35,472 bases of DNA from Aurantiacibacter xanthus (GTDB taxonomy: Bacteria; Pseudomonadota; Alphaproteobacteria; Sphingomonadales; Sphingomonadaceae). The notes under the pieces were generated by a model. It searched no databases and had not been told where the DNA came from. It worked only from the letters and a program-made list of their open reading frames with translations. The translations under genes were made by a program, and so were the position numbers. Positions 3,488 to 25,329 of the stretch are shown here, piece after piece. The stretch is from positions 1-35,472 of the forward strand of contig NZ_QXFM01000089.1 of NCBI RefSeq assembly GCF_003584015.1, read 5' to 3'. How positions within the stretch are numbered: the first letter of the stretch is position 1; each line of letters starts with the position of its first letter.

Positions 3488-4915
3488 TTACTGACGATAG
3501 TCGAGCGGCGGCTTACGGTCGCCGAGCAGCGATTCGTACTGATAATCCGGGCCGAGCAATTCGGTAAACTCGGCCTTGGCCTGCTCGCGCAGTTCGGCGT
3601 CCGAATAGAGTTCGACGCCCATCAGCACCATCGCCTTGGCGGCATGGCTCGCGCCCTTGAACCCGATCGACATGCCGCTCGCCGCGACCGCCTGCCAGCT
3701 GTGTGCGCTGGTTCCCGGAACCCAGGTCGCGGTGCGCACGCTGACCGTCGGAACCGCGCTGGAGACATCGCCCACATCGGTCGAGCCGTAGTTGGTCAGC
3801 ACTGCATAGGGCGCGACCGTTTCGGCAGCAGTGATCGGTGGTGCATCGTCGCCGAGGCTCTCGCGCAGGGTCCGCGCCCAGGCCTGCTCTTCAGCCGAGT
3901 AGCTGATGCCGCCGATCTGTTCGAGGATCTGCGTCATCCGGCGCTGGAGCGTGGGGACGGGCCGGGTCGGATTGTTGCCGTGGATGATCTCCCATTCCAC
4001 CGTCGTCCCGGTGCCCATGGCCGCACCCTTGGCGGCGCCTTCGATGCGCGGCCACAGCGCGCGCACCTCGTCGGGGTCCGAATGGCGGACATAGTAGAAC
4101 ACCTCGGCGAAGTCGGGCACCACGTTGGGCGCCGATGCCCCGTCGGTGATGGCATAGTGGATGCGCGTATCCATGCTGGTGTGCTCGCGCATCATGTTGA
4201 CCATCATGTTCATCGCCTCCACCCCATCTAGCGCCGAGCGCCCGTTTTCCGGCGCAGAGGAGGCGTGCGAGGAAATCCCGTGGAAGCGGAACTTGGCTGA
4301 GCGGTTGGCAAGGCTGCTCGAAGATGGCGCGGCATTGCGGTCGCCCGGATGCCAGTCGAGCACGAAGTCGGCATCGTCGAAGAGCCCTGCGCGGGTCATA
4401 TAGACCTTGCCCGAGCCGCCCTCTTCGGCAGGCGTGCCATAGAGCCGGATGCGCCCCGGCGTGCCCGTCGCCTCCAGCCAGCGCTTGAGCACGATGGCCG
4501 TGGTGAGCGACCCCGCGCCGAACAGGTTGTGCCCGCAGGCATGGCCTGCATGCTTGGAGGCAAGCGGATCGCGGGTCGGCTCGGCGGACTGGGTGATGCC
4601 GGGCAGCGCGTCGAACTCGGCCAGCACGCCGATCACCGGGCCGCCGTGGCCCCACTCGGCGATGAAGGCGGTGGGAATGTCCGCGACACCCGCTTTGACC
4701 GTGAAGCCCTCGGCCTCGATTTCGGATTGCAGCAGGCTGGACGACGACTGCTCAAGGTAGCCAAGCTCGGCAAAGTCCCAGATCTGCTGGGCGATGCGTG
4801 CGGTGTGGTCGAATTCGGCATCGACGGCAGCAGCGGGATCGAACGCCTCCTGCGCGGCGGCGGGAAGTCCGGGCAGGCACAGGGCCGCCAGAGCTAGCGG
4901 GATGAAAGGCTTCAT
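3488..4915 (-). CDS. Secreted M20 family amidohydrolase/peptidase (AbgB-like)
   Basis: The 475-residue protein starts with a signal peptide (MKPFIPLALAAL...PAAAQ, cleavage near 21-22), so it should act in the periplasm. M20D-type metal site: Cys127-x-His129 in HACGHN, Glu164-Glu165 in GTPAEEGG, His189 in DWHPGD, and His405 in GTSAHSW. The dimerisation (lid) domain lies at about 205-320. Relatives hydrolyse N-acyl amino acids, dipeptides or p-aminobenzoyl-glutamate; the exact substrate cannot be read here. Start: ATG at 4915 has GGAG six bases upstream, preferred over a GTG four codons earlier. It follows the symporter gene by 33 nt on the same strand, so the two probably form one unit: cleavage of an acylated or peptide substrate with uptake of the released amino acid. 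Confidence 0.88.
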   Translation of the reverse strand: MKPFIPLALAALCLPGLPAAAQEAFDPAAAVDAEFDHTARIAQQIWDFAELGYLEQSSSSLLQSEIEAEGFTVKAGVADIPTAFIAEWGHGGPVIGVLAEFDALPGITQSAEPTRDPLASKHAGHACGHNLFGAGSLTTAIVLKRWLEATGTPGRIRLYGTPAEEGGSGKVYMTRAGLFDDADFVLDWHPGDRNAAPSSSSLANRSAKFRFHGISSHASSAPENGRSALDGVEAMNMMVNMMREHTSMDTRIHYAITDGASAPNVVPDFAEVFYYVRHSDPDEVRALWPRIEGAAKGAAMGTGTTVEWEIIHGNNPTRPVPTLQRRMTQILEQIGGISYSAEEQAWARTLRESLGDDAPPITAAETVAPYAVLTNYGSTDVGDVSSAVPTVSVRTATWVPGTSAHSWQAVAASGMSIGFKGASHAAKAMVLMGVELYSDAELREQAKAEFTELLGPDYQYESLLGDRKPPLDYRQ

Positions 4916-4948
4916 GAAGGTCTCCACTTCGCTGGGCTTGGGGGCGCG

Positions 4949-6187
4949 TCAGACATCGTCAGCCGACACATATTCCTCGACGTCGATTTCGCCCGACAGA
5001 CGCCCGACTGCCACGGCCACGGCGGCGTCGCCCGAGACGTTGGTCATGGTGCGGGCCATGTCGAGGATGTGGTTGATCCCGGCCACGAAAGCGATCGTTT
5101 CGAGCGGGACGCCAATCGACGAGAGCACCAGGCTCATCATCACCAGCCCCGATCCGGGCACGCCCGCCGCGCCAATCGCGCCCAATGTGGAAGTGAGCGC
5201 GATCAGACCATAGGAGACCCAGCTCAGCTCGATCCCGTAGGCCTGCGCACCGAACAGCGCGATGACGCCGAGGTACATCGCGGTGCCGTTCATGTTGATC
5301 GTGGCCCCCAGCGCGACGGTGAAGCTGGCCACCGCATGCGAGACGCCGAGGTTGCGCTCCACGCAGCGCAGGGTCACGGGCAAGGCCGCGTTCGAGGATG
5401 CGGTGGAGAAGGCCACGGCCTGCGCGTCGATGATGCCGCGGTAGAAATCGATCACCGGCAGGCGCGCAATCAGCCGCAGGATTGCTGGGTAGACGACCAA
5501 CAGGATGATCGCGCAGCCGCCATAGTTGAGCGCCACCAGCTTGCTGAGCGGGATCAGCGCTTCGAAGCCGAAGGTGCCCGCGACCCATGCGATCAGCGCG
5601 AAGACGCCGAAGGGCGCGAGTTCCATCACGAAGATGGTCATCTTCTGCATCACCGCCGATCCGGCATTCATCGCCCGGGCAATCGGCGCGCCTTCCTCGC
5701 CGGTGGCGAGGATCGCCATGCCGAGCAGGACCGAAAAGATGATCACCGGCAGCACCGCGCCTTCAGCCATGGCCATGATCGGATTGTCGGGCACCAGCCC
5801 GATAATCATCTGGATCAGCGACTGGTCGGGCGCAGGCGGAATTTCGGTATCCGCCGACAGGTTGATTTCAAGGCCGACACCCGGCTGGAACAGTGTTGCC
5901 AGCCCCATACCGAGCGACACTGCGATCAGCGCGGTGGTCATGAAGATCAGCAGCGCCTTGCCGCCCACGCTGCCGAGGCGGCCAATGTCGCCCACCGCCG
6001 TCATGCCCGAAACCAGCGAGAAGAAGATCAGCGGGATGACCAGCATCTTGATCGCACGGATGAACAGGTCGCCGATCCATTTGATGGATTCCGCGCTCTC
6101 GCCCATCATCATGCCGACGATGACCCCGCAGACCATCGCGAACAACACGCGTTTCCACAGGGCGGAGGCGAACCAGGCGCGTAGCAT
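4949..6187 (-). CDS. Dicarboxylate/amino acid:cation symporter (SDF family, GltP/DctA-like)
   Basis: The 412-residue membrane protein has the glutamate-transporter fold: eight membrane segments, serine-rich hairpin HP1 (STASSNAALP, 261-270), TM7 motif NMNGT (298-302), hairpin HP2 (AGVPGSG, 341-347) and TM8 with LDMARTMTNVSGD. Arg379 in TM8 matches the arginine that binds the side-chain carboxylate of Glu/Asp in known transporters, which argues for an acidic substrate. The usual NMDGT has Asn300 where Asp is expected at a cation site, and the TM8 Asp four residues before LDMA is Asn (NHILDMAR). Both are unusual and may alter ion coupling. Start ATG 6187 has AAGGA about 12 nt upstream. A candidate LysR box lies 90 nt before the start. 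It is followed by the M20 peptidase. Confidence 0.92.
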   Translation of the reverse strand: MLRAWFASALWKRVLFAMVCGVIVGMMMGESAESIKWIGDLFIRAIKMLVIPLIFFSLVSGMTAVGDIGRLGSVGGKALLIFMTTALIAVSLGMGLATLFQPGVGLEINLSADTEIPPAPDQSLIQMIIGLVPDNPIMAMAEGAVLPVIIFSVLLGMAILATGEEGAPIARAMNAGSAVMQKMTIFVMELAPFGVFALIAWVAGTFGFEALIPLSKLVALNYGGCAIILLVVYPAILRLIARLPVIDFYRGIIDAQAVAFSTASSNAALPVTLRCVERNLGVSHAVASFTVALGATINMNGTAMYLGVIALFGAQAYGIELSWVSYGLIALTSTLGAIGAAGVPGSGLVMMSLVLSSIGVPLETIAFVAGINHILDMARTMTNVSGDAAVAVAVGRLSGEIDVEEYVSADDV

Positions 6188-6277
6188 CGTCTAGGGTGTT
6201 CCTTTTGATGTGGTCGGTTTCGGAGCGATTAGACAGCAATCGGTCTGGTCAGCAGACTTCAAACAATCATGTCGGTC

Positions 6278-6292
6278 ATAGGCCAAGGTTAT
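6278..6292. promoter_or_regulatory. Candidate LysR-type operator upstream of the symporter/M20 unit
   Basis: ATAGGCCAAGGTTAT has the T-N11-A spacing of LysR boxes (T6279, A6291). It matches 11 of 15 positions of the perfect dyad at 12260-12274, and both are preceded by TC. It ends 90 nt before the symporter start codon, the same distance as the other two boxes. The assignment is inference from sequence similarity and spacing. Confidence 0.55.
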
Positions 6293-6353
6293 CGCAGCAC
6301 TTTTCCCGGTATGCCAACAGCGGCAACGCTGCTGGCCCCCGGTTTTCGGCAGA

Positions 6354-6713
6354 TTAGTCCTCGTTCTGCGACAGGCAGGCGACCGCTTCGATCTCCACAT
6401 TGCCCGCTACGAGGCCCGAAATCACCGTCGAGCGGCTGGGAAAGGGGGCGGCAAAAACCTCGCGATAGACGGCGTTGAAACCGGGCATCAGCGAGGCGTC
6501 GGTCAGCCATGCGGTGACCTTGATCACCTGATCGAGCCGCGCGCCCGCCTCGGCCAGCACGGCCTCAAGGTTGGCGAGCGCCTGCCGCGTCTGCGCCTCG
6601 ATATCGCCGGGGATGATGGACCCATCCGCCATGCGCGGCAGCTGGCCCGAGGTGAAGACGAGGTCGCCCGCGCGGCGGTAGCGGCTGAGGGGCGGGACAG
6701 AGGGGGTGGTCAT
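6354..6713 (-). CDS. RidA family enamine/imine deaminase
   Basis: The 119-residue protein spans the whole YjgF/RidA fold: FTSGQLPR near the N-terminus, the helix with QALANLEAVLAEAG, and KVTAWLTD. Arg94 in PFPSRSTV matches the substrate-carboxylate-binding Arg105 of E. coli RidA, and Glu109 in VEIEAVA matches Glu120. RidA enzymes hydrolyse reactive enamine/imine intermediates to keto acids plus ammonia. The ATG at 6713 directly follows the TGA of the D-amino acid dehydrogenase (no base between), so translation is probably coupled. That dehydrogenase makes an imino acid as its first product, so the pairing makes chemical sense. A 166-bp gap with a LysR-like box separates it from the symporter. 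Confidence 0.9.
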   Translation of the reverse strand: MTTPSVPPLSRYRRAGDLVFTSGQLPRMADGSIIPGDIEAQTRQALANLEAVLAEAGARLDQVIKVTAWLTDASLMPGFNAVYREVFAAPFPSRSTVISGLVAGNVEIEAVACLSQNED

Positions 6714-8015
6714 TCAAAGGGTCTCCAGCTTGTGATGGGATATATCGGCAGCGGCATCGACCAGCGCGGCGACCCGCTCGGCGGCACCGGCGGCAAAGGT
6801 CCAGCCGAGCATTCCGTGACCGATGTTCACGAACACGCGCTGGCGGGCCTGCCGGATGATGGGGTTGGAACTGGCGGTCATCGGACGCAGCCCGGCCCAG
6901 TCGGCGCTTGCCTCGTCATAGGCGGCGGCTCTGGGCAGCGCGGCTCTGGCGTTGTCGAGCAGCAGTTGCAGCCGCGCCGGATCGGGGCGCGGATCGCGAT
7001 TGTTCAGTTCCGCGAGCCCCGCCACGCGTATCGAGTTGCCGAGGCGGCAGCAGACGATCTTTCGCGCGGAATCGGTGATGCTGGCACTGGGCGCATCGGG
7101 GCCGGGCGGGGCGGTGAAGCTGTAGCCCTTCATCGGCAGGATCGGGTTGGGAATGCCCAACGGGCGCAGCAGCGCCGGAGCCTCCGCTCCGAGGCATGCC
7201 ACCACGGCGCGGGCCGACAGGATCGCCCCCTCGCGGCTGCGCACGGTGACGCCGCCGTCATGCTCGTCCACTGCGGCAATTTGGAACCCGAAGGCGGTCT
7301 TCACCGCATAGCGCTTGGAGAGCACGTCGAGCAGGCCAAGCGAGAAGCGATAGGGATCGCCGACCTCTTCCGCAGGTGTCCACAATGCCCCGGCAAAGCT
7401 GCCGATTGCGCTCAATGCAGGCTCTATTGCGATGGCCTCTGCGGGGCTGAGCAGTTGTTGCGTAACGCCCGCTTCCTGCTTGATCGCCATCGCCTTGCGG
7501 GCGCCCCGCAGGCTGGCCTCATCGCGGAAGATGTGCATCTTGCCGGGGCGGGTATGCGCGAAATCGAAGCGGTGGCGCGCGCACAGCTCCGCCATGGCCA
7601 GCCGCGATTCCAGCCCCAGCGCGAGCGCGGCGCGGGTGTTCTCGGCAAAGCGCGCCTCGGTGCAATTGCGCAGGAAGGCGAGGCTCCAGCGCAGGAACTC
7701 CGGGTCGAGCGAGAAGTGCAGGCGGAAGGCCGGATTGAGCCCCGCCAGGATGGCAGGCATCGCGGGTAGCAGGCCGGGCTGCGCCAGCGCGTCGGTATAG
7801 GCGTAGGAGAGCTGAGCCCCGTTGGCGAAGGAGCTGCCCTGGGCGGGGCCGTCAGCGCGGTCGACCAGCGTCACCGCATAGCCGCGCCGGGCCAGCGCAT
7901 AGGCGGTGGTGACGCCCACGACGCCCGCGCCCAGCACCAGAACGTCGGTCTCGGGTCCGGTTGCCTCCGCTGAAGACGTGCAGGTTCGACCGGATTCCGG
8001 CTGCGAGTGTTTCAT
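6714..8015 (-). CDS. FAD-dependent D-amino acid dehydrogenase (DadA-like)
   Basis: The 433-residue protein opens with a dinucleotide-binding motif (VLVLGAGVVGVTTAYALA, GxGxxG at 29-34, acidic end of strand 2 in LVDR), followed by SSFANGAQLSYAYTDALAQPG, which resembles the DadA pattern after the FAD site. The C-terminal FAD-contact region is NIGHGMLGWTFAAGAAERVA. DadA enzymes oxidise D-amino acids to keto acids and ammonia and pass electrons to the respiratory chain; a D-proline or D-hydroxyproline dehydrogenase is an alternative in the same family. Start: ATG 8015 with GAGG seven bases upstream; a TTG four codons earlier has no such site. The gene is 62 nt downstream of the D-aminoacylase and abuts ridA. 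Confidence 0.87.
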   Translation of the reverse strand: MKHSQPESGRTCTSSAEATGPETDVLVLGAGVVGVTTAYALARRGYAVTLVDRADGPAQGSSFANGAQLSYAYTDALAQPGLLPAMPAILAGLNPAFRLHFSLDPEFLRWSLAFLRNCTEARFAENTRAALALGLESRLAMAELCARHRFDFAHTRPGKMHIFRDEASLRGARKAMAIKQEAGVTQQLLSPAEAIAIEPALSAIGSFAGALWTPAEEVGDPYRFSLGLLDVLSKRYAVKTAFGFQIAAVDEHDGGVTVRSREGAILSARAVVACLGAEAPALLRPLGIPNPILPMKGYSFTAPPGPDAPSASITDSARKIVCCRLGNSIRVAGLAELNNRDPRPDPARLQLLLDNARAALPRAAAYDEASADWAGLRPMTASSNPIIRQARQRVFVNIGHGMLGWTFAAGAAERVAALVDAAADISHHKLETL

Positions 8016-8077
8016 CGAATTCCTCAATTTATCATTCGGTCGGCGCGCTGTCCGCGCCGTGCTTCAGGCCGACCGGG

Positions 8078-9679
8078 TCAGCCCGGGCAGGTTCCGGGCG
8101 GTGGGCGATGGCGCAGCGCTTGCCCCGCAGCGACACCGGTCGGCGCGCCATCGAGAATGACGCTCTGGCCGTTTACGAACAGCGCCTCCACGCCCTCGCT
8201 CAGCTCGCGCGGTTCGAGATAGGTTGCCACCGGGCCATAATGCTCGGGATCGAACATCACGACATCGGCCTTGTAGCCCGCCCGCAGATGCCCCCGGTCG
8301 GTCAGTCCGAACATGTCGGCGGTGCGCCCGGTGCTGCTGTTGATGAAGGTGGCGAGGTCGATGGCCGCCGCTTCGCGCACATATTTGCGGTATTTCTGCG
8401 GGAAGGTCGCATACATGCGCGGGTGGCCTTCCGAGCCGTCGGAGCTGGTGACGACCCACGGCTCGCGCATGAAGGCGGTGATGTCGCCTTCGGCCATGTT
8501 GAACGAGACGGTCTTGCCGCTGCGGTCGCCGTCCTCGATGATGCGGATCGCTGCCGTGATCGGGTCGAGGTTCCACTGCGCGGCTACATCGTCGAGCCGC
8601 CTTCCGGTCCACTCGTGGCCCTGCGCCACCAGCAGCAGCGAATGGGCCCCGCCGCGGCGGCGCATGTTCTCGGCCATCTCGGCTTCAATCTTTCCGCGCT
8701 CAGACGGATCGGCAAGCCGCGCCAGCAGCGCCTCGCGCCCGCCTTCCTGCGACCATGGCGGCAGCAACGCCGCCTGCAGACTGGTGCCCGAGGCCTCCCA
8801 TGGATACTGGTCGGCGGTGACGTCCTGCCCCTCGGCGCGGGCGCGGTTGATCGCTGCGATGATCGTGCCCGAGGTGCCGTGCAAGTCCACGCCCAGCACC
8901 TTGATATGCGCGATGTGGACCGGCAGCCCGGCTTCGCGCCCGATGGTCAACACCTCCTGCACCGATTGCTCGACGCCGATGCTATAGGTCGCCTCGTCAC
9001 GCTGGTGGGTGTCGTAGATGCCGCCGCGCAGCGCTGCCTCGCGCGCCAGGGCGACGACCTCTTCCGTCTGGGCGAAGTTCTGCGGCACGTAATAGAGCCC
9101 GGTCGAAAGGCCGAGTGCGCCCTCGCACATGCCCTTGGCGACCAGCGCCTTCATCGCGTCCAGCTCGGCCTCGTCGGGGGCGCGACCCGAATCGCCGAGC
9201 ACGGCGCGGCGCACCGGACCGAAGCCGACATAGGCCGCGACATTGGTGCCGAAACCGCGCGCTTCGAGGTCGTCGTAGAATGCCGCGACTTCCGGCGTGC
9301 CGCCGCCGTCGACGCCGGTAAAGATCGTGGTCACGCCCTGCATCATCCACGGCAGGTTCAACCGGCCCTCGCTGTCTGTCGCTTCGAGGAAGCGCTGGGC
9401 GTGGGTATGCGGGTCGATGAAGCCGGGCGCGACGATCATGCCGCTGGCGTCGATCACGCGGGCCCCGGCAGGAGCCGCGCGGCTCGGGCCGACATAGACG
9501 ATTTCGTCTCCGCTGATCACGACATCGCCAACGATAGGCGTGTCCGAGCTGCCATCGTAAATGGTGCCGCCCGCCAGAACCGTTGCCTGCGACAGCGGGC
9601 CTTGCGCAGTGGCGCATCCGGCAAGGCCGGTGCTGGCGAGGAGCGCGAAGGCCGCGCCGATGGTCTTGGCGACACTCAT
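8078..9679 (-). CDS. Lipoprotein N-acyl-D-amino-acid deacylase-like amidohydrolase
   Basis: The 533-residue protein has a lipobox (LAGC, Cys22), so it should be an envelope lipoprotein. Its amidohydrolase-fold signatures match D-aminoacylase: HTH (His91, His93) in GFIDPHTHAQ, EGALGLSTGLYYVP, His225 in YDTHQRDEA, His255/His258 in VHIAHIK, and Asp414 in SSDGS. The zinc-ligand cysteine of well-studied D-aminoacylases (VGNCG) is replaced here: the aligned loop is TGVDGGG, with Asp124. Relatives release D-amino acids from N-acyl-D-amino acids; dipeptidase activity on D-residues is an alternative. The ATG at 9679 overlaps the TGA of the upstream serine hydrolase (ATGA), with GAGG seven bases upstream inside that gene, so the two are translationally coupled. 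The D-amino acid dehydrogenase follows. Confidence 0.88.
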   Translation of the reverse strand: MSVAKTIGAAFALLASTGLAGCATAQGPLSQATVLAGGTIYDGSSDTPIVGDVVISGDEIVYVGPSRAAPAGARVIDASGMIVAPGFIDPHTHAQRFLEATDSEGRLNLPWMMQGVTTIFTGVDGGGTPEVAAFYDDLEARGFGTNVAAYVGFGPVRRAVLGDSGRAPDEAELDAMKALVAKGMCEGALGLSTGLYYVPQNFAQTEEVVALAREAALRGGIYDTHQRDEATYSIGVEQSVQEVLTIGREAGLPVHIAHIKVLGVDLHGTSGTIIAAINRARAEGQDVTADQYPWEASGTSLQAALLPPWSQEGGREALLARLADPSERGKIEAEMAENMRRRGGAHSLLLVAQGHEWTGRRLDDVAAQWNLDPITAAIRIIEDGDRSGKTVSFNMAEGDITAFMREPWVVTSSDGSEGHPRMYATFPQKYRKYVREAAAIDLATFINSSTGRTADMFGLTDRGHLRAGYKADVVMFDPEHYGPVATYLEPRELSEGVEALFVNGQSVILDGAPTGVAAGQALRHRPPPGTCPG

Positions 9680-11070
9680 TGCGCGGCCTCTTGGTTGACG
9701 CGGGTGAGAGTGAGTTCGGCGGTGGTGCCGCGCTTCAGCCGCAGGCGATCGGGATTGTCGGTCGGCGTGATGGACATGGTCTCGTGGTGAAACCCGCCAT
9801 CGTCGTCGGCCTCGTAATGCTGGACCACCGGCGCGGCGATAAAGGGCGAGGTCACCTCCACCGCGATGCCGTCATCCGACGGCGTCAGGCGGAAGTAGGC
9901 GTTCAACTCGGAGGAATGGAACAGGCCCTCAGGGCTGCTCAGCGGCATACCCGGATAGCGCACATCGCTTGCCGCCATCACCGCTTTCAGTCGGTCGGTG
10001 GCCTTCCAGTCGCCCCGGTTGCAGAGCACGGCAAAGGCGCTGTGCTGGTCGGGCAGGCGCAGATAGGCATGCTTGAACGCCTCGGCCGAGCCAGTGTGGA
10101 CCACCACCGCCTGCCCACCCTTTTCGCCAAGGTGCAGGCCGCCGCCATAGGCAAGGCCGCCGCCATCGTCGATCAGCGAGCCATCGGTGTAACGGCCCGG
10201 CGCGAGCATGATTTGCGTCACCTCCGGGGTCCAGACCCTGTGGCCCTGCTCGATATCGTATTCGTAGCGGGCCAGGTCGTTCATCGACAGCATCAGCCCG
10301 CCCGATCCGCTGAAGCGCGGGAAGCTGTCACGCAGGGCAAAGCCATCGCCCTCGGGCACATAGCCATGGGCGAAGGTGCCGGCGGCAGGGCTGTTGTCGT
10401 TGAGGAAGAAGCTGCGTTCCATCCCCAGCGGGGCGAAAATCGCGCGCCGGGCGTAGTCGGCAAAGGCCTCGCCCACGACGCGTTCGACGATCTCGGCCAG
10501 CAGCAGATAGCCGCCATTCGAATAGCTGTAGCGCGTGCCGGGCGTGAACTGCGTGTGCTGTTGGCGGAACAGCAGGTCTAGCGCATCGTCCTTCGAGGCC
10601 GTTCCGACATCGCTGACGCCTGCCATGCGCAGCAGGCCCAGCGAATCGCGAATGCCCGAGGTATGATGCATCAGCATGCCGACCGTGATCGGCGCATCGT
10701 AAACCGGGAGTTCGGGCAGGTACTGGCGCACATCGTCGTCCAGTGCCAACTTCCCCTGCGCAATCAGCGTGGCCGCCGCCAGCGCGGTGAACTGCTTGGA
10801 CACTGAGGCGGCATAAAACAGGCTGTCGCCATCGAGCGGGCGTTGGTCGGCAAGATCGGCATAGCCCTGCGCCACCAGCCCGACCGGCTGCCCCTGCGCG
10901 AACGTGCTAGCCACGCAACCGGGCGCCAGAGCATGGGCAGGATCGCTCAGCGCCGCGCGCATGGCTGCTTCCGGGGCTTGCGCGCCAGCAGGAGCCGCCA
11001 GCACGCCCAGAGCGGCTGCCGTGAGCAAACAGAGCCTTGATGCGGGCTGTGTTTGGGTAGGCGCTACCAA
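9676..11070 (-). CDS. Secreted serine hydrolase, class C beta-lactamase/D-peptidase family
   Basis: From a TTG start the protein has 464 residues, with a signal peptide ending near AGAQA (about 32). Active-site motifs are SxxK (Ser89-Val-Ser-Lys92), YSN (Tyr183-Ser-Asn185) and HTG (His325-Thr-Gly327, in place of KTG), so the catalytic set of penicillin-binding-protein-like hydrolases is complete. A C-terminal beta domain (about 365-464) follows. This family includes D-aminopeptidases, DD-peptidases, esterases and AmpC; HTG and the neighbouring genes favour a D-peptidase or esterase over a drug-destroying enzyme. Start: TTG 11070 has AGAGGAG eight bases upstream and gives a clean signal peptide. 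An in-frame ATG at 11136 would add 22 residues and leave the ribosome site inside the gene. First gene of the hydrolase-deacylase-dadA-ridA unit. Confidence 0.85.
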   Translation of the reverse strand: MVAPTQTQPASRLCLLTAAALGVLAAPAGAQAPEAAMRAALSDPAHALAPGCVASTFAQGQPVGLVAQGYADLADQRPLDGDSLFYAASVSKQFTALAAATLIAQGKLALDDDVRQYLPELPVYDAPITVGMLMHHTSGIRDSLGLLRMAGVSDVGTASKDDALDLLFRQQHTQFTPGTRYSYSNGGYLLLAEIVERVVGEAFADYARRAIFAPLGMERSFFLNDNSPAAGTFAHGYVPEGDGFALRDSFPRFSGSGGLMLSMNDLARYEYDIEQGHRVWTPEVTQIMLAPGRYTDGSLIDDGGGLAYGGGLHLGEKGGQAVVVHTGSAEAFKHAYLRLPDQHSAFAVLCNRGDWKATDRLKAVMAASDVRYPGMPLSSPEGLFHSSELNAYFRLTPSDDGIAVEVTSPFIAAPVVQHYEADDDGGFHHETMSITPTDNPDRLRLKRGTTAELTLTRVNQEAAQ

Positions 11071-11162
11071 CTTGCGGTCTCCTCTAACTTGCTGCGGCGA
11101 TCTCGAACCCAAGGAGTGCAGGCGCAAAAACCGCATGACAATGTCAAGTCGTCACCCGAGTC

Positions 11163-11177
11163 ATAGCTCTGCGTTAT
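11163..11177. promoter_or_regulatory. Candidate LysR-type operator upstream of the serine hydrolase unit
   Basis: ATAGCTCTGCGTTAT (T11164, A11176: T-N11-A) matches 10 of 15 positions of the dyad at 12260-12274 and is also preceded by TC. It overlaps the stop codon of the LysR gene and ends 92 nt before the TTG start of the serine hydrolase. The spacing is like that of the other two boxes and supports the TTG start. The most degenerate of the three. Confidence 0.45.
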
Positions 11178-12094
11178 GGCGTCGTGGGCTGACCGGGTGT
11201 GCTCGGGCCGGAAAGCTCGCAGAGCGCCGCGCGCAGGTTTTCGATAAAGCGGTCGGCAAGGTCGGCGTTCGGGCTGTTCTCGAGCGTTGCCGCATAGATC
11301 GGCGCCTGCACGTTCGGCACCAGTTGGTAGTAGGACAGGTCGGGCGTGCCCAGGGCCGAAACCGTATATTCGTCGGCAACCGTGATCCCCATCCCTTCGC
11401 GCACCAGCGCCAGCGCGGCGTAATAGGTATGCGAGGTGACCACCTCGCGCGGGGCGACTTCGTAGCGGTTCAGCTCGTTCACGAAGGCATCGGCCAAGGG
11501 GCCGCTGTCGCGCACGCCGATGAAGTTGAGTTCATGCAGGGCCTCGATCGCGACGGGCTGGTCGGTGGGTCCGAAAGCATCGCGCGGGGTGACCAGCACT
11601 AGGCGTGGCCGCCCGAGTTCGGTCTGCGCGATCCCGGCATTGCGGTTCAGCCGAAAGCCCACCGCGACGTCGCAGGCGCGCTCGTGCAGGAAGCGGTCCA
11701 TCTCGCGGCTGTGCAGCGTGGTGATCTCGGAGGAGATCTCGGCATTGCCTTCGCACAGCCGAGCGATAGCGCGCGGGGCCACCGCCAGCGCAATCGCGGG
11801 CAGCACGGCGACCCGCAAATGCCCGCCCTTGCGGCTCCCGATATTGTGCGCGGTGCGGCTCAGCTTGCTGAGGCTGGTGTAGACCTCGGCCACCTCGGCA
11901 AACAGCTCGTGGGCCTGCGGGGTGGCGACGAGCCTGCCCTTGGTCCGCTGGAAAAGCTCATAGCCAAGCTGGTCCTCGGCATGGCGCAGCACCTTGCTGA
12001 CCGATGGCTGCGAGACATTGAGCATGCGCGCCGCGCCGCTGATCGAGCCATGCTCGTAAACGGCGTGAAAGACTTCGATGTGCCGCAAACGCAT
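11174..12094 (-). CDS. LysR family transcriptional regulator
   Basis: The 306-residue protein has the LysR winged helix-turn-helix at 1-60 (MRLRHIEVFHAVYEHGSISG...LNVSQPSVSKVLRHAEDQLG), a linker helix and a two-lobed periplasmic-binding-protein-like effector domain (about 90-295). Start: ATG 12094 with GGAG six bases upstream gives the canonical N-terminus; the frame is open further upstream but that extension has no domain. It lies between the minus-strand hydrolase operon and the plus-strand TonB receptor, the usual place for a LysR protein that controls both sides. Three T-N11-A dyads in the locus are candidate sites. The inducer is unknown; a D-amino acid or peptide is a guess from the neighbours. 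Confidence 0.95.
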   Translation of the reverse strand: MRLRHIEVFHAVYEHGSISGAARMLNVSQPSVSKVLRHAEDQLGYELFQRTKGRLVATPQAHELFAEVAEVYTSLSKLSRTAHNIGSRKGGHLRVAVLPAIALAVAPRAIARLCEGNAEISSEITTLHSREMDRFLHERACDVAVGFRLNRNAGIAQTELGRPRLVLVTPRDAFGPTDQPVAIEALHELNFIGVRDSGPLADAFVNELNRYEVAPREVVTSHTYYAALALVREGMGITVADEYTVSALGTPDLSYYQLVPNVQAPIYAATLENSPNADLADRFIENLRAALCELSGPSTPGQPTTP

Positions 12095-12259
12095 ATTGGG
12101 CTCCGTGCCAGGTGCAACCGCAGGCAGCATAACCGAACGGCATGGAATTTGAACCGAGGATAGCGGCCCTGCTTCGCTGGCAGGGAGCGCGGACATCCAG
12201 TAAGCGCGCCAGTCTGGCAGAACTGGCGTCAGCTGAGGGGTCGCACCGAAGCTTGCATC

Positions 12260-12274
12260 ATAACGCATGGTTAT
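12260..12274. promoter_or_regulatory. Candidate LysR box (perfect dyad) in the lysR/TonB receptor divergent region
   Basis: ATAAC-GCATG-GTTAT is a perfect 5-5-5 inverted repeat with T-N11-A spacing (T12261, A12273), the standard LysR recognition form. It ends 89 nt before the TonB receptor ATG and begins 165 nt upstream of the LysR ATG. Similar sites lie at 11163-11177 and 6278-6292. Confidence 0.65.
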
Positions 12275-12363
12275 AGGTACGCGAACCAATATTGCTTCGC
12301 AGGCCTTTCCTTTGTCGCAAGACTGTCTCTCGGATCGACAAGGCTTCAAAAACGGAGAAAAAC

Positions 12364-15261
12364 ATGAGGTATTCGGGGCTCAATCGCGCCGCCATTGGCG
12401 AATCAGGCTTGAATTTGAAACGATTTCTGGTCGGTGGCACAGCTTTGGCGCTGTGCCTTGCGCCGTCCATTGCTCATGCGCAGGATGCCCCGGAAACCAG
12501 CGCCGCCGCCGCAGACGAAGCGTCTGACGGCCGCATCGTCGTCACCGGCTCGCGCATCGCCCGCACCGGCTTCGATAACCCGACCCCGACCACGGTTGTC
12601 ACCGCGGAGCAGATTTCGAACACCGGCCTCAACGATATCGGCGACGTGCTGATGCAGAGCCCGCAGATTTCGGTCGGTCTCGGCTCGGGCAACGATACCT
12701 TCCAGCGCGACATCGGCGCCAGCTTCATCAACCTGCGCGGCCTCGGCGAAAACCGCACGCTGGTGCTGGTTGACGGTCGCCGCCGGGTGTCCGGCTCGCG
12801 CGACGGGGCGCAGGTCGACGTTTCCGCTATTCCCACCTCGATGATCGAAAGCGTCGACATCATCACCGGCGGCGCCTCGGCGGTCTATGGTGCGGACGCC
12901 GTTTCGGGTGTGGTCAACATCCGCCTCAAGGAGGACATGGAAGGCCTGAACCTGTCGGGCCGCCTCGGCCTGTCCTCGCGCGGCGACGCGGGCACCTACC
13001 GGATGTCGGTCAGCGGTGGCGGCAAGTTCGATGACGGCCGCGGTTCGGCGCGGTTCGGCCTCACCTACAGCAAGAGCGACACGCTTCGCTATCGCGACCG
13101 CAGCTACACCTACGGTGCGGGCGAGCTGGACTTCGTGACCAACCCCGATAACACCGGCCCCAACGACGGCATTCCCGATCGTATCGTCATCAACAATCCG
13201 CGCACGATCAATACGCCTTACGAGCCGACCTTCGTGATCGGCGGGCAGCGCTATTTCTACGATCAGGGCCTGATCGCGCAGCCCGACGATGTTACCTGCT
13301 ACGGCACGAAATGCGTCGGCGGCGACTTCGGTTATGACAGCCGCGAGCGCAATCTGCGCAATCCGCGTGAGGCCATTTCCGCCATCGCCGGCCTGCAGTA
13401 CGAACTGACCAGCGGCATCACCGCCTTTACCGATTTCGAGTTCTCCTTCGCCGAGAGCGAAACCAACGGCCAGGGCTTCTTCGATTCCGCCCTGACCCTC
13501 CGCCGCGACAACCCCACGCTGCCCGATGAAGTCACCGCGCTGATGGACGCGAACAACCTGTCGTCGATCAAGGTCGGCTACGAAGGCGAGTACATCTTCG
13601 GCAACCGCGAGCACGGCAACCGCCGCACAACCTACACCATCGCGGGCGGCCTGCGCGGCGAACTGGGCAATTTCGACTGGACCGCTTTTGCGCAGTACGG
13701 TCGCCGCGACCAGCGCTACAAGCGCGGCAACTCGCGCATCGAGAGCCGGTTCTACGAGGCGGTCGATGCCGTGCGCGATCCGGTCTCGGGCGACATCGTG
13801 TGCCGCAGCGCCGCCGCGCGCGATGCCGGTTGCACGCCGATCAGCGTCTTCGGCGGCATGCTGAGCGATGAGCAGAAGGCCTATTTCGAGGCGACCTTCC
13901 AGCGCGATGTCACCAACGAGCAGTTCCTTGCCGGTTTCCAGGTCTCGGGCAGCCCGATCGAGCTTCCGGCAGGTCCGCTGGGCGTCGCGCTTGGTGCAGA
14001 GTACCGCAAGGACTCGCTGAAGAGCGTCGACGACGCGCTCGGCTCGCGCGGCCTGCTCTACCGCACCGACAACGGCGGCGGCGAAGTCGATGCCAGCAGC
14101 GATGTGTCCGAAGCCTTCGTCGAACTGGTGGTGCCGGTGCTCAAGGACAGCATCATCGGCAAGTCGCTGCAGTTCGAAGGCGCGGCGCGCTATTCGCACT
14201 ATGACACCGTGGGCGATACCTGGGCCTGGAAGCTGGGCGGCGAATGGGCGCCGATCGACGATCTGAGCTTCCGCGTCACCCGTTCGCGCAGCGTGCGCGC
14301 GCCGACCTTGGTCGAGTTCTTCGCGCCCGAGACGCTGGGCGTGCTGAACATCACCGCCGACCCCTGCGATGCGGCCGAGATCAACCTCAACCCCAACCGC
14401 GAGGCGAACTGCCGCGCGCTGGGTATCCCCGCGGGCTGGGTCGACCCGGCTGCGTCGCTGGCCCTGACCACGCGGCTGGGCGGCAACCCCGATCTGCAGG
14501 AAGAGACTTCGAACTCGTGGACCTTCGGCGTGGTCGCTTCGCCGTTCGAGGGCCTGCGGCTCTCGGCTGACTGGTGGACCATCAAGATCGACGACGCGAT
14601 CCAGACCCTCAGCGGCAACGACATCGTCGACAAGTGCGTGGATTCCGCATCGCTCGACAATCCGTTCTGCCCGCTGGTTACGCGCGGCAACTTCACCGGC
14701 ATCAGCGATCCCTATGTGATCTCGTCGATCGACCTGCGTCAGGTGAACATCGGTGCGCTGGAAGCGCGCGGTCTGGATATGGCGGCGAGCTATCGCACCT
14801 ATCTTGACCGGATTTCGGCCAACCTGCCGGGCCGCCTCGATGTGCGCCTGACCGCCACCTACCTCGACAAGCTGGAGGAGCTGGTCGACGTCACCGATCT
14901 CGACACGCTGCTCATCAGCGACGGCGAGTATGGCAATCCCACTTGGCGCGGCAATCTCAACCTCGACTATTCGCTGGGCGGTCTGCGGGCGAACTGGACG
15001 GTGCGTTATCTCGGCAACTCGAAGATCAACGTGCAGCGCAGCGACGAATACTATGGCGGTGTCACCGTTGACGAACGGTTCTATCACGACCTGTCGTTCT
15101 CCTACGACTTCAGCAGTGGGGAGACCGTGCAGTTCGGCGTGAACAACCTGTTCGACGAGCATCCGCCGCGCACTCCGTCGACCTATACCGGGGCCGGTGG
15201 CGCGTCGCTGTTCGATAATGTGGGCACGTTCTTCTATCTCGGGTTCAACAAGAGCTTCTGA
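12364..15261 (+). CDS. TonB-dependent receptor (sphingomonad peptide/nutrient type)
   Basis: The 965-residue outer-membrane protein has a signal peptide (cleavage after AHA, about 39), a TonB-box-like segment (IVVTGSRI, 58-65), a plug domain with NLRGLGENRTLVLVDGRR and GGASAVYGADAVSGVVNI, a long beta-barrel and a C-terminal Phe (FFYLGFNKSF) as expected for barrel assembly. Start: ATG 12364 with GGAG six bases upstream. This plug pattern is abundant in sphingomonads and xanthomonads and is not confined to siderophores. Its ligand is unknown; the peptidases and D-amino acid enzymes around it and the LysR box upstream suggest a peptide or modified amino acid. A hairpin separates it from the S9 peptidase. 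Confidence 0.93.
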   Translation: MRYSGLNRAAIGESGLNLKRFLVGGTALALCLAPSIAHAQDAPETSAAAADEASDGRIVVTGSRIARTGFDNPTPTTVVTAEQISNTGLNDIGDVLMQSPQISVGLGSGNDTFQRDIGASFINLRGLGENRTLVLVDGRRRVSGSRDGAQVDVSAIPTSMIESVDIITGGASAVYGADAVSGVVNIRLKEDMEGLNLSGRLGLSSRGDAGTYRMSVSGGGKFDDGRGSARFGLTYSKSDTLRYRDRSYTYGAGELDFVTNPDNTGPNDGIPDRIVINNPRTINTPYEPTFVIGGQRYFYDQGLIAQPDDVTCYGTKCVGGDFGYDSRERNLRNPREAISAIAGLQYELTSGITAFTDFEFSFAESETNGQGFFDSALTLRRDNPTLPDEVTALMDANNLSSIKVGYEGEYIFGNREHGNRRTTYTIAGGLRGELGNFDWTAFAQYGRRDQRYKRGNSRIESRFYEAVDAVRDPVSGDIVCRSAAARDAGCTPISVFGGMLSDEQKAYFEATFQRDVTNEQFLAGFQVSGSPIELPAGPLGVALGAEYRKDSLKSVDDALGSRGLLYRTDNGGGEVDASSDVSEAFVELVVPVLKDSIIGKSLQFEGAARYSHYDTVGDTWAWKLGGEWAPIDDLSFRVTRSRSVRAPTLVEFFAPETLGVLNITADPCDAAEINLNPNREANCRALGIPAGWVDPAASLALTTRLGGNPDLQEETSNSWTFGVVASPFEGLRLSADWWTIKIDDAIQTLSGNDIVDKCVDSASLDNPFCPLVTRGNFTGISDPYVISSIDLRQVNIGALEARGLDMAASYRTYLDRISANLPGRLDVRLTATYLDKLEELVDVTDLDTLLISDGEYGNPTWRGNLNLDYSLGGLRANWTVRYLGNSKINVQRSDEYYGGVTVDERFYHDLSFSYDFSSGETVQFGVNNLFDEHPPRTPSTYTGAGGASLFDNVGTFFYLGFNKSF

Positions 15262-15306: not shown

Positions 15307-15367
15307 TGTTCTATGCTGATTTTGTGCCGCATGAGCGGCGATGCCATCTGGTTCGGAGCCACCGTTC

Positions 15368-17851
15368 ATGAAACTCACCCGCATTCTTGCGCTTGCTCTT
15401 GCCCTGAGCGGAGCGGTCCTGCCCAATGTCGCCACGGCGCAGGAGGGCTATCGCGAGCCTTCCGCCGAGGCCGCCGCCATTCTCGATATCCCCCCGCCGC
15501 CCGCCGCCAGCGCCAGCCCGGATGGCGACTGGATGGTGATTACAACGCTGCAGGGCATGCCGGGAATCGCCGAGCGCGCCGTGGACATGGTGCGGCTTGG
15601 CGGGGTGCGGGTGAATGTCGAGACCAACGGGCCTTACGATACCAATGTCTATGATCGGAACTCGTCCTACACCGGACGCGGCACCGGCTATCGCCTGATC
15701 AATCTGCGCACCGGCCAGGAGCGCGATCTCGCCGCGCCGGCAACGAACCTCGGACCGCCGATGTGGTCGCCCGACAGCAAGAGCTTTGCCTTCCTCCACA
15801 CCGCCGCGCAGGGCATCGAGCTGTGGCTCGCCAATACGGCGGACGGCACGGTGCGCAGGCTGACCGGTCCTTCGATCAATGTCGCCAGCAGCATTGCCAG
15901 CTCGTCGGACGCGCCGTGTGCGTGGATGAGCGACAGCCGCCGCATTCTGTGCCAGTTCGTGCCCTCGGGCCGTGGCCCAGCGCCGAAGCGCGGCGTGCCC
16001 ACGGGCCCGGCCGTGCAGCAGACCGATGGCGAGAAGGCCCCGGTCTGGACCTTCACCAACCTGCTCACCGACGAATTCGACGAGCGGCTGTTCGATTATT
16101 ACATGACCGCGCAGCCGATGCTGGTGGATGTGGCCAGTGGCGAGCTGACCCCGTTTGGCGAGCCCGGTATTTATGAAAGCCTGACCGCATCGGCAGACGG
16201 GCAGTATTTCCTCGCGACGCGGATTACCGGGCCCTACTCCTATCTCGTTCCGGCCAGCCGGTTCCCCAAGCAGGTCGATATTCTGGCGGCGGACGGCACG
16301 CTGGTGCGCGAGCTGGCCAGTGTGCCGCTCAACACTGCGGGCCCCGAAAGCATGGGCTGGGCACAACCGGGCGAGCGCTGGCATCAGTGGCGGCCTTCAT
16401 CGCCGGCCGCCATTGTCTATGTGGAGCCGCTCGACGAGGGCAACCCCTCGGTCGAGGCCCCCTATCGCGATCGCATGATGGTGCTCGAAGCGCCGTTCAC
16501 GGGTAAGCCGCGCGAAGTGCTGCGCACCGAGGATCGCCTCGTTCCGACGTCGCCGGATGGCGGTTCGCGCGGGCGGTTCGCCTTCACCGCGCAAGGCGAG
16601 GTGATGGCGGGACAGTTCCGCGGGGCCACCCGCGACACCCGCATGTGGCTGGCCGATGCCGGTTCGGTGGGCTCCGAAGCGCGGTTGCTGTGGTCGCACA
16701 ATTCGGACGACTGGTATGGCGATCCGGGCGAACCTGTCACGCTGGCGGGCGGCGCGCTGCTGCGGCAGGACGGCGACTGGATCTATCTGACGGGCGAGGG
16801 CGGTTCTCCCGAGGGCGACCACCCGTTCCTCGACCGGTTCAACCTCGCCACCGGGCAGACCGAACGGCTGTTCGCGACCGAGGGCGCAAGCTACGAGACG
16901 GTTGTCGCCGTGCTTGACGACGAGGCGAGCCGGATCGTCACCCGCTATGAAACGGGCACCACGCCTGCCAACTACCGCATGCTCGATCTTGCTGGCGGCT
17001 CGCAAATGGCGCTCACTCAGATCGCCCAGCCCGAACATGCGCTGAGCTGGTCAAGCAAGCGTCTGGTGAACTACACCCGCTCCGATGGCGTGCCGTTGAG
17101 CGGAACGCTTTACCTGCCGCCGAACTACCGCGAGGGCGACAAGGTGCCCGCCATCGTCTGGGCCTACCCGCGCGAATTCGCCAGCAAGCAGGGCGCGGGG
17201 CAGGTGCGCGGTTCGCCCTATCGCTACTCGGGCCGCTCGAACCGGGTGTCGAGCGACTATCTGCTGTTCCTCACCCAGGGCTATGCGGTGCTGGCCGATG
17301 CGGCGATGCCGATCGTCGGCGGACTCGAGGCGAACGACACCTATGTCGAGCAACTGGTGGCCAATGCGCAGGCGGCGGTTGATATGCTGGTCGATGCGGG
17401 CGTCACCGAACGCTCGACGGTGGGCATTGCCGGGCATAGCTACGGCGCCTTCATGACCGCGAACCTCTTGGCGCACAGCGACATTTTTGCTGCCGGTTAT
17501 GCGCTGAGCGGGGCCTATAATCGCACGCTGACCCCGTTCGGGTTCCAGCGCGAACGGCGCACCTACTGGGAGGTGCCCGAGGTCTACCATGCGATGTCGC
17601 CGTTCATGCATGCGCCCGACATCAACGAGCCGATCCTGCTGTTCCATGGCGAGATCGACAGCAACACCGGCACCTATCCGATCCAGTCGCAGCGCTTCTA
17701 TCACGCGCTGAAGGGCGTGGGGGCGACGGCCAAGCTGGAAATGATGCCCTATGAGGACCACGCCTATGTCGCCCGCGAAAGCCGCCTGCACACGCTGGCC
17801 GAGGCGTTCGACTGGTTCGACACCTATGTGAAGCACGCCGCCGAGCGATAG
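15368..17851 (+). CDS. Secreted S9 family peptidase, glutamyl-endopeptidase-like (S9D)
   Basis: The 827-residue protein has a signal peptide (MKLTRILALALALSGAV...ATAQ, cleavage near 25), an N-terminal beta-propeller-like part (about 50-560) and a C-terminal alpha/beta-hydrolase catalytic domain. Catalytic triad: Ser691 in AGHSYGAF, Asp764 in HGEIDSNTGTYPIQSQR, His798 in PYEDHAYVARE. The two last motifs are typical of the glutamyl endopeptidase branch known from chloroplast GEP, which cuts after Glu. It should act in the periplasm. Start: ATG 15368 with GGAG about ten bases upstream. It follows the TonB receptor by 106 nt on the same strand, which fits import followed by cleavage of peptides. 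Specificity for Glu is inference from the motifs and would fit the acidic-substrate symporter in the same locus. Confidence 0.9.
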   Translation: MKLTRILALALALSGAVLPNVATAQEGYREPSAEAAAILDIPPPPAASASPDGDWMVITTLQGMPGIAERAVDMVRLGGVRVNVETNGPYDTNVYDRNSSYTGRGTGYRLINLRTGQERDLAAPATNLGPPMWSPDSKSFAFLHTAAQGIELWLANTADGTVRRLTGPSINVASSIASSSDAPCAWMSDSRRILCQFVPSGRGPAPKRGVPTGPAVQQTDGEKAPVWTFTNLLTDEFDERLFDYYMTAQPMLVDVASGELTPFGEPGIYESLTASADGQYFLATRITGPYSYLVPASRFPKQVDILAADGTLVRELASVPLNTAGPESMGWAQPGERWHQWRPSSPAAIVYVEPLDEGNPSVEAPYRDRMMVLEAPFTGKPREVLRTEDRLVPTSPDGGSRGRFAFTAQGEVMAGQFRGATRDTRMWLADAGSVGSEARLLWSHNSDDWYGDPGEPVTLAGGALLRQDGDWIYLTGEGGSPEGDHPFLDRFNLATGQTERLFATEGASYETVVAVLDDEASRIVTRYETGTTPANYRMLDLAGGSQMALTQIAQPEHALSWSSKRLVNYTRSDGVPLSGTLYLPPNYREGDKVPAIVWAYPREFASKQGAGQVRGSPYRYSGRSNRVSSDYLLFLTQGYAVLADAAMPIVGGLEANDTYVEQLVANAQAAVDMLVDAGVTERSTVGIAGHSYGAFMTANLLAHSDIFAAGYALSGAYNRTLTPFGFQRERRTYWEVPEVYHAMSPFMHAPDINEPILLFHGEIDSNTGTYPIQSQRFYHALKGVGATAKLEMMPYEDHAYVARESRLHTLAEAFDWFDTYVKHAAER

Positions 17852-21291: not shown

Positions 21292-21468
21292 TCAGGCGGA
21301 CCTGATGCGTTTCTTCTCGGTCACGTCGATCTGGACGATGCGCCCCTCGTGTACGGTGAGGGACACATTGCCGAACTTCATGCCGGACAGCGCTTCGCGG
21401 ACGTTGGCTATGCTCTCTTCCAGCAAGTGCTGAGCCTCGTTCGACACGGATTGATCAAGCTTGGTCAT
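21292..21468 (-). CDS. YezD family small protein (DUF2292)
   Basis: A 58-codon gene starts at ATG 21468 and overlaps the end of cysA by 14 nt. The protein has a short N-terminal helix ([20 protein letters not shown]), then [20 protein letters not shown] with a basic tail (EKKRIR). The block LSG-x-x-[FY]G-x-V-x-x-x-VH-[ED]-GR-[IV]-VQI is characteristic of the YezD/DUF2292 family, small proteins often encoded beside sulfate-assimilation genes; their biochemical role is unknown. The overlap with cysA implies translational coupling, so it belongs to the cysPTWA operon. Family assignment is from recall of the motif. Confidence 0.8.
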
Positions 21469-22435
21469 GGCTCGTGGCTCCGCTTTGGGGAAAGGTCTTC
21501 AACCGGCGCGGCACGATCCTGATGGTGTCGCCGGGCGAAGGGGGCGCAAGGGTGGCGTCGAGATCCAGCTCGACCACCTCGGCGTGGCTGGCGAGGCTTC
21601 CCTCGATGCGCCAGACGCCGCCCTTGCGGAAGATGCTCTCGACGATGACGGGCTGACCGCCGTCCTCGACAATGCGGAATTCGTGTGGCCGCACATGGAT
21701 GCCGCCGGGCAGATGGTTGGTCTCGCCGACAAAGTCCGAAACGAAGGCCGTGGCCGGTTCCATATAGACCTGCTCGGGCGTGCCGATCTGCTCGATCACG
21801 CCATGATCCATCACCACGACGCGGTCGGCCAGTTCGAGCGCTTCTTCCTGATCGTGGGTGACGAAGATCGAGGTCAGCCCCATCTGCTTGTGCAGATCGC
21901 GCAGCCATCGGCGCAGCGTCTTGCGGACCTTGGCGTCGAGCGCACCGAAGGGCTCGTCGAGCAGCAGCAGCTGCGGCTCCACCGCCAGCGCGCGGGCCAG
22001 TGCGACGCGCTGGCGCTGGCCGCCGGAAAGCTGCGCAGGATAACGGTTGCCCAGACCGCCCAGCTGGACAAGCTCCAGCAGTTCCTCCGCACGGGCCCTG
22101 ATCTGCGCCTTGGGCGGACGCTGGCCGCGCTTCCTCACCGACAGACCGAAGCCGACGTTGTCGGCGACGGTCATGTGCTTGAACAGCGCGTAGTGCTGGA
22201 ACACGAAGCCGACCTTGCGGTCCGCGACCTTGAGACCGGTCACGTCCTCGCCATCGAAGGCGACCGTTCCCGCATCGGGAAAGGCCAGCCCGGCGATGAT
22301 GCGCAGCAGTGTCGTCTTGCCCGACCCCGAGGGGCCGAGAAGCGCGAGGAACTCGCCGTCCTTCACTTCGAGGTCGATGTTATCCAGCGCGCGATAGCCG
22401 CCGAAGGTCTTGGTGATGCCATCGAGCGTGATCAA
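21455..22435 (-). CDS. cysA: Sulfate/thiosulfate ABC transporter ATP-binding protein CysA
   Basis: The 326-residue ATPase has Walker A GPSGSGKT (34-41), Q-loop FQHYALF, ABC signature [15 protein letters not shown], Walker [13 protein letters not shown] and the H-loop THDQEEA. The C-terminal part (about 235-326), with VRPHEFRI and a TOBE-like sheet, is typical of CysA. It powers sulfate or thiosulfate import with CysT and CysW. Start: a TTG at 22435 overlaps the cysW stop (TTGA), has AGGAG nine bases upstream, and gives the usual short N-terminus ([17 protein letters not shown]). An ATG at 22471 would add 12 residues and overlap cysW by 40 nt. The gene ends inside the yezD-like gene. Confidence 0.93.
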
Positions 22436-23262
22436 TGTCCTGCACTCCTGCGGTGATAGGCGAACCGCCATTCGACGATGCTTTTGAGAACCAGCGTCAC
22501 CAGTGCGAGCAGCGCCAGCAGCGAGGCGACGGCAAAGGCGGCGACGAAATTGTATTCGTTGTAGAGAATCTCGACATGGAGCGGCATGGTATTGGTCAGC
22601 CCGCGCAGATGCCCGGAGACGACCGATACCGCGCCAAACTCGCCCATGGCGCGCGCGTTGCAGAGCAGCACGCCATAGAGCAGGCCCCAGCGGATATTGG
22701 GCAGCGTCACCCGGAGGAAGGTCTGCAAACCCGATGCGCCGAGCGACAGGGCGGCTTCCTCGTCGTCGCGCCCCTGTTCGCTCATCAGCGGGATGAGTTC
22801 GCGGGCGACGAAGGGAAAGGTCACGAAGACGGTGGCGAGCACGATGCCCGGCACGGCGAAGATGATCTGGATGTCATGCTCGGCCAGCCACGGGCCGAAC
22901 CAGCCCTGTGCGCCAAACATCAGCACATAGATCAGGCCCGCCACCACCGGAGACACCGAAAACGGCAGGTCGATGAAGGTGACCAGCAGGCTCTTGCCCG
23001 GAAAGTCGAACTTGGCGATCGACCAGGCCGCGACGATGCCGAACACGATGTTGAGCGGTACGCTGATCGCGGCGACCAGCAGGGTCAGCCTGATTGCGGC
23101 CAGAGCATCGGGCTCGACCAGCGCGGCGGCATAGGCCTCCAGGCCTTTCTCCAGCGCGGCCATGAAGACCGCTGCCAGCGGCAGGACCAGGAACAGCGCG
23201 ATGAAGGCGAGCGCGGCGGCGATCAGCAGATGGCGCGCGCGCAGGATCGAAAGAGTGTTCAT
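22432..23262 (-). CDS. cysW: Sulfate ABC transporter permease CysW
   Basis: The 276-residue permease has about six membrane segments and the binding-protein-dependent transport signature [28 protein letters not shown] (the EAA loop, about 170-200, that docks on CysA), followed by [15 protein letters not shown], typical of CysW. The ATG at 23262 overlaps the cysT stop (ATGA), with GGAGG eight bases upstream, so the two are translationally coupled. The frame stays open far upstream inside cysT, but that part has no permease character. Confidence 0.95.
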
Positions 23263-24161: not shown

Positions 24162-24167
24162 CGCGCC

Positions 24168-25214: not shown

Positions 25215-25281
25215 GTCGCAATCTCCCTGGTGCCTTCCCTCCGCCCGCATGGACGGAAAGGCCGGGCGACTCTCTAGGTCA

Positions 25282-25309
25282 CTATCTCTATCTGGATTAT
25301 AGGGATTAG
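25282..25309. promoter_or_regulatory. Candidate Rrf2 operator overlapping the cysP -10 box
   Basis: CTATCTCTAT (25282-25291) and ATAGGGATTAG (25299-25309) form an imperfect inverted repeat (9 of 10 bases pair with one bulge) around a 7-bp spacer, covering the TATAAT -10 of the cys promoter. The half-site ATAGGGA recurs in the rrf2 upstream region. The position suits a repressor; that Rrf2 binds here is inference. Confidence 0.45.
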
Positions 25310-25325: not shown

Positions 25326-25329
25326 GGGG

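Follow-up and report, generated by a model that had tools for sequence, protein, structure and literature searches.

The region analysed here (the window) is a stretch of 35,472 nt of Aurantiacibacter xanthus (assembly GCF_003584015.1, contig NZ_QXFM01000089.1, positions 1 to 35,472 of the forward strand), in which a gene for a LysR-type regulator lies amid genes for the putative uptake and breakdown of D-amino-acid conjugates, together with three similar 15 bp boxes. The regulator gene (lysR, 11174..12094, - strand) encodes a protein of 306 aa with an N-terminal HTH_1 domain (PF00126, 8e-20) followed by a LysR substrate domain (PF03466, 1.8e-32), and is adjoined by a palindromic T-N11-A site of the kind that defines a LysR-type operator. 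Divergent from it is the gene for a TonB-dependent receptor of 965 aa (12364..15261, + strand; PF00593 and PF07715). In the other direction, all on the - strand, lysR is followed by genes for a serine hydrolase of the beta-lactamase fold resembling D-aminopeptidase (9676..11070; PF00144, 1.2e-53), an amidohydrolase of the N-acyl-D-amino-acid deacylase family (8078..9679), a DadA-like D-amino acid dehydrogenase (6714..8027; PF01266), a RidA-family imine/enamine deaminase (6354..6713; PF01042, 2.7e-25), a symporter of the glutamate/dicarboxylate family (GltP/DctA-like, 4949..6187; PF00375, 2.7e-123) and an M20-family amidohydrolase/peptidase (3488..4927; TIGR01891, 233 bits, over the cut-off), which follows the symporter in the nearest relative (locus L035) as well. 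Several of the finer assignments fall short of their model cut-offs: the hydrolase scored 127 bits against the D-aminopeptidase model (cut-off 443), the dehydrogenase 336.5 bits against NF001933 (cut-off 383), and the symporter matched the GltP model best but under its cut-off. Six genus mates had no match to the regulator at E 1e-40, and the cluster (3488-15261) therefore looks accessory in the A. xanthus genome.

The three boxes were first noticed by eye. Operator 1 (12260..12274, + strand, ATAACGCATGGTTAT) is a perfect dyad between lysR and the receptor gene, operator 2 (11163..11177, - strand, ATAACGCAGAGCTAT) lies ahead of the predicted hydrolase operon, and operator 3 (6278..6292, - strand, ATAACCTTGGCCTAT), the weakest, lies ahead of the symporter gene; the sequences are given as read on the strand of the gene that follows. 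With the position weight matrix (PWM) described below, operators 1 and 2 each score 23.9 and operator 3 scores 9.9. The sequence-only reading had described all three as sharing a leading TC with ATA, a terminal GTTAT and T-N11-A geometry, and on the + strand this holds for each 15-mer at the positions given. It had placed all boxes on the + strand, whereas two of the targets lie on the - strand; since the boxes are near-palindromic, this matters little.

The chance level of boxes found in this way had been left for testing. The pattern ATA-N7-GTTAT occurs at 3 places in the window (4 matches, the palindromic place matching on both strands) against an expectation of 0.04, and none of 100 shuffles of the window gave at least 4 matches. 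The dyad with two mismatches allowed was less selective, with 7 matches against 1.84 expected, a number of at least 7 being reached in 1 of 100 shuffles. Genome-wide scans were made with patterns, the matrix being applied to loci and not to the whole genome. The exact dyad ATAAC-N5-GTTAT was found at a single place (12260) in the 4,377,143 bases of the genome, and ATARSN5GTTAT at 4 places in 4.38 Mb, namely the three boxes and a site at C106:2754. The latter lies in the gap before the neighbour of ftsA (FtsA identified by Pfam, FtsZ by eye from its open reading frame) and looks like a chance match. The same applies to a YATARCN5GYTATR site on contig C67, which overlies the start of a YfiO/BamD-like gene. 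On the window and genome counts, the shuffles and the enrichment near lysR described below, a chance match of the boxes was rejected.

Near-equal distances of 89, 90 and 92 nt between box and start codon had also been reported. The first two are correct for the receptor (ATG at 12364) and the symporter (ATG at 6187). The third holds for the hydrolase with a TTG start at 11070, the distance to the upstream ATG at 11136 being 26 nt; we prefer the TTG, which by eye has an AGAGGAG ribosome site and is followed by a signal peptide. In relatives the spacing ranges from 26 to 166 nt, and equal spacing as a rule was discarded as only approximate.

To follow the boxes in relatives, loci (L-numbers) and genomes (G-numbers, G000 being the genome of the window) were sampled. 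A search of the family with the regulator at E 1e-40 gave 63 matches in 61 of 298 genomes; a named collection added three loci (Qipengyuania, Sphingomonas and Novosphingobium), one of which duplicated a genome of the family search. The homologue set of 65 in all was examined in full. Dyads with at most one mismatch numbered 30 within 400 bp of lysR (54 kb) and 7 in 500 kb elsewhere, so that the motif is not as frequent at random positions. Eight control motifs, made by reversal, complementation, permutation or re-spacing, had 0 or 1 site each close to lysR, and between 2 and 9 elsewhere. A matrix built on the 30 near-lysR sites yielded the symmetric consensus YATARC-N5-GYTATR, and with this matrix a site scoring at least 12 was found downstream of lysR in 52/65 homologues. 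Because the matrix was trained on the same loci, the complement control and the shuffles are the fair comparison for this count; the complement gave 0/65, and the shuffles a mean of 0.12 and a maximum of 2 of 65. Conservation by recent descent of shared flanks was ruled out, as the flanks differ widely among loci and the arms stay. In L035 operator 1 has kept its arms, most inner bases being changed. The expected conservation in relatives was thus borne out beside homologous lysR genes, with the exception of the symporter box, which is eroded in L035. In a class-wide search the regulator was found at E 1e-40 in 7/385 genomes, three of them in the family of the window itself; for the remaining four, which belong to other families, the top site scores were 3.7, 11.0, 15.6 and 14.8. 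The last two scores belong to box-like sites at L129 and L130, loci from another family with distant LysR homologues (32-33% identical), located beside D-amino acid dehydrogenase genes.

A peculiarity of operator 2, which the sequence-only reading had not mentioned, is that the stop codon of lysR (TAA, 11174-11176) falls inside the box. In 36/65 homologues the downstream operator starts one base before the lysR stop, ATA(A/G)C supplying TAA in 13 and TAG in 23 of them, and in four further homologues the first base of the stop coincides with the final base of the box (offset -17). The C-terminal tails of the LysR proteins mostly differ between loci (five share one), and the overlap therefore does not go back to a single copied end. 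It is most simply explained if the operator closes a reading frame running into it. Among the LysR regulators of strain PAO1, 103 are described as divergent from their neighbours and ten as in series with them (PMC10926688). For a family whose members mostly face away from their neighbours, an operator that takes in the stop codon of the regulator gene is an unusual layout.

Rearranged loci are informative as to which genes the boxes accompany. In relatives with broken-up or relocated units, boxes are seen ahead of genes for the receptor, the serine hydrolase, the symporter, the dehydrogenase, the deacylase and DUF1611. The symporter gene is flipped in L036 and L037 and is preceded there by a separate box, at 82 and 91 nt respectively (PWM 15.4 and 16.5). 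A separate dehydrogenase gene is preceded by a box in L043, L044, L046 and L050, the receptor gene in L056, and serine hydrolase homologues in L140 and L152. In G248, lysR lies about 197 kb from the DUF1611 gene, with a box ahead of the latter and another ahead of the deacylase gene; in G004 the distance is about 590 kb, again with a box ahead of DUF1611. In the 52 loci with a downstream operator, the first regulon-type gene past the box is DUF1611 in 34, the TonB receptor in 11, the serine hydrolase in 5, and the symporter and the dehydrogenase in 1 each. The proposal of a single regulon of three units is supported by these boxes ahead of several separated or inverted units. The pattern also follows the regulator between genomes: YATARCN5GYTATR is present in 54/61 genomes with the regulator and in 19/61 without it (Fisher p 8e-11), the latter being the six genus mates and the lowest-numbered others out of 237. 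The site totals were 88 and 34, respectively, versus 180 and 178 for the reversed control, part of the excess being by construction, because the pattern was defined from sites beside lysR.

Several observations weigh against a regulon defined by this motif. No downstream site scoring at least 12 was found in 13/65 homologues. Six of these are accounted for: in L040 the box overlaps the end of lysR, and for L029, L058, L071 and L077 (site 4-6 kb off) and L072 (on another contig) there is a genomic site elsewhere, beside pathway genes; only these six are. Among the matches listed, 29 sites away from lysR were examined, and 18/29 had no adjoining regulon-type gene; these are probably mostly chance. 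The other 11/29 (L105, L106, L112, L113, L137, L138, L140, L142, L144, L151 and L152) had such a gene after or flanking the box. The reversed control equalled or exceeded the real pattern in 47/61 genomes with the regulator and in 59/61 without it; within-genome counts are therefore weak, and use was made solely of the contrast between genomes with and without the regulator. The regulator itself was one of the 30 (of 31) LysR-type matches in the A. xanthus genome that were checked, and 2/29 of the other loci, some of which overlap, held a matrix site of at least 12 within about 3 kb, so that some sites taken to be chance score higher than the symporter box (9.9). With so few, a motif generic to all LysR genes is mostly rejected. 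Finally, the A. xanthus genome has no DUF1611 gene (G000: 0), such genes being present in 6/16 genomes searched. The symporter box, the weakest of the three, is where these doubts have most room. It scores 9.9 as against 23.9, has one imperfect arm, and is eroded or lost in L035; there a gap of about 195 nt separates RidA from the symporter gene behind it. Possibly, only operators 1 and 2 function and the symporter box is a product of chance or decay; expression of the symporter would then be independent or stem from read-through of RidA. The boxes at the flipped symporter genes of L036 and L037 argue otherwise, as does the closeness of operator 3 to the other two, all three lying within 6 kb with just one further ATARSN5GTTAT in the genome, and we consider this explanation unlikely.

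The boxes are thus real and kept across relatives, and one regulator most likely turns on an entire recycling pathway for a D-amino acid, probably D-glutamate. The regulator is predicted to be an inducer-dependent activator that binds YATARC-N5-GYTATR ahead of three units, the first being the TonB receptor gene, the second a putative operon of the hydrolase, deacylase, dehydrogenase and RidA genes, and the third the symporter and M20 genes. Since the stop codon of lysR is commonly overlain by the operator, the regulator gene would end within the control site of its own target. A D-amino-acid conjugate would be taken up through the outer membrane, cleaved, deacylated and imported across the inner membrane, to be finally oxidised to the keto acid with clean-up of the imine.

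The layout past the boxes is consistent with activation. A YTAT/ATAT half-site at +18 past the box is present in 22/52 loci, no other offset exceeding 5, and the 34 DUF1611 loci have a TA-rich spot at +45 to +47; the hydrolase box of the window itself has no clear half-site at +18. If the TA-rich spot is the -10 element, the centre of the box would be near -65, and in the passages of PMC4834489 that deal with primary LysR sites these lie at about -65. By this analogy we infer that the regulator acts as an activator; the dyad would be the primary (-65) site, with probable contact also to the weaker half-site some two turns of the helix downstream. A regulator acting mainly as a repressor, with occupancy of the box blocking transcription until the ligand arrives, is compatible with the sequence but improbable: a downstream half-site, combined with a box centred some 65 nt before the inferred start, is the layout of a LysR activator. 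A weak fourth box (12129..12143, - strand, ATGCCGTTCGGTTAT), with one arm altered, is located 34 nt before lysR and may be an autoregulatory site, compatible with negative autoregulation. L035 has kept it, mirror forms occur in L064, L066, L083 and L087 (over the start codon), and the count is 6/65 loci overall.

As to the substrate, the operator precedes DUF1611 in 34/52 loci, which points to D-glutamate or N-acyl-D-glutamate. We take DUF1611 to be DgcN-like. The DgcN-DgcA route of D-glutamate handling is described in passages of PMC10845958 and PMC12363236, in which the name DUF1611 does not appear. The family was confirmed by Pfam in one example, L052 (4.4e-73). There, the operator has DUF1611 and an epimerase-like gene behind it (10543-12527), which suggests a route of D-glutamate racemisation. 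The same control code thus appears to serve two D-glutamate disposals, oxidation in A. xanthus and racemisation in relatives. The substrate would most likely be N-acyl- or peptidyl-D-glutamate, with D-glutamate itself or the N-acylated compound as the best candidate for the inducer. The regulon could also be real with a substrate other than D-glutamate, either a different D-amino acid or a D-aminoacyl peptide. The closest deacylase in the PDB is a D-aminoacylase (1m7j, E 7.6e-63), with N-acyl-D-glutamate deacylase behind it (3gip, E 4e-52); the dehydrogenase belongs to the DadA type and the serine hydrolase is D-aminopeptidase-like. Against this stand the GltP-like symporter and the same operator before DUF1611/epimerase genes in relatives. 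We regard a substrate other than D-glutamate as a real possibility, though the less probable one. That a single inducer-dependent LysR activator, acting through a shared operator, controls three units for D-amino-acid scavenging, with a D-glutamate-type compound as the likeliest substrate, is a reading we hold with considerable confidence.

Two D-glutamate systems invite comparison. The first, dguRABC of Pseudomonas aeruginosa, was reportedly described by He et al. (2014); it includes a dehydrogenase and a RidA-like gene, and DguC is a periplasmic binding protein. Likened by gene content, the A. xanthus cluster has the same combination of LysR regulator, D-amino acid dehydrogenase and RidA-family gene, but adds a TonB receptor, serine hydrolase, deacylase and symporter, with boxes ahead of three units. 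None of the eight genes of the cluster encodes a periplasmic binding protein of the dguRABC type. An ABC transporter further on has its solute-binding protein encoded at 24168-25562, 9 kb past the receptor gene, where no site reaches 9.5 with the matrix; the transporter (21455-25562, including two permeases) has a further TonB receptor (18746-21202) and an S9 peptidase (15341-17851) next to it, and ahead of it there is just a poor dyad with two mismatches (25594). The second system, the DgcN-DgcA pathway, is said to have been reported by Yu et al. in 2023. In many relatives the operator precedes DUF1611 as would fit that pathway, with an epimerase-like gene next where checked, but A. xanthus is without DUF1611 and has the dehydrogenase and RidA instead. 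A role of DguR as LysR regulator in D-glutamate catabolism is given in PMC10926688.

LysR-type operators in general are represented in passages of PMC5002191 by T-N11-A and CTATA-n9-TATAG. The boxes share with these the ATA-N9-TAT core, the palindrome, T-N11-A and a lysR gene divergent from its target, here the receptor gene; they differ in the specific R-C/G-Y arm bases and in the presence of a further operator that spans the stop codon at the lysR 3' end. ThnR, the host of which is a sphingomonad, likewise has several promoters under one LysR regulator, but its pathway is that of tetralin and a co-activator is required there. Passages of PMC4834489 give at least four promoter targets for this one regulator of the tetralin pathway, a primary site near -64 and the need for the co-activator. 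No published regulon or operator of the present kind was found in the titles and abstract openings of the CC-licensed PMC literature, among the matches listed.

With these results a pattern found by eye becomes a regulon that extends across the family and has an operator code open to testing. The evidence leaves it evenly balanced whether a single regulator/operator code governs the recycling of D-glutamate (or N-acyl-D-glutamate) throughout sphingomonad-type bacteria, with the chemistry swapped (dehydrogenase and RidA versus DUF1611/epimerase) and the operator fused into the lysR stop, as a tail-end operator tying the end of lysR to the target promoter. The regulator and its operator are a candidate for a biosensor, and the regulon would tie a TonB receptor and several hydrolases to the recycling of D-amino acids, a component of refractory organic matter.

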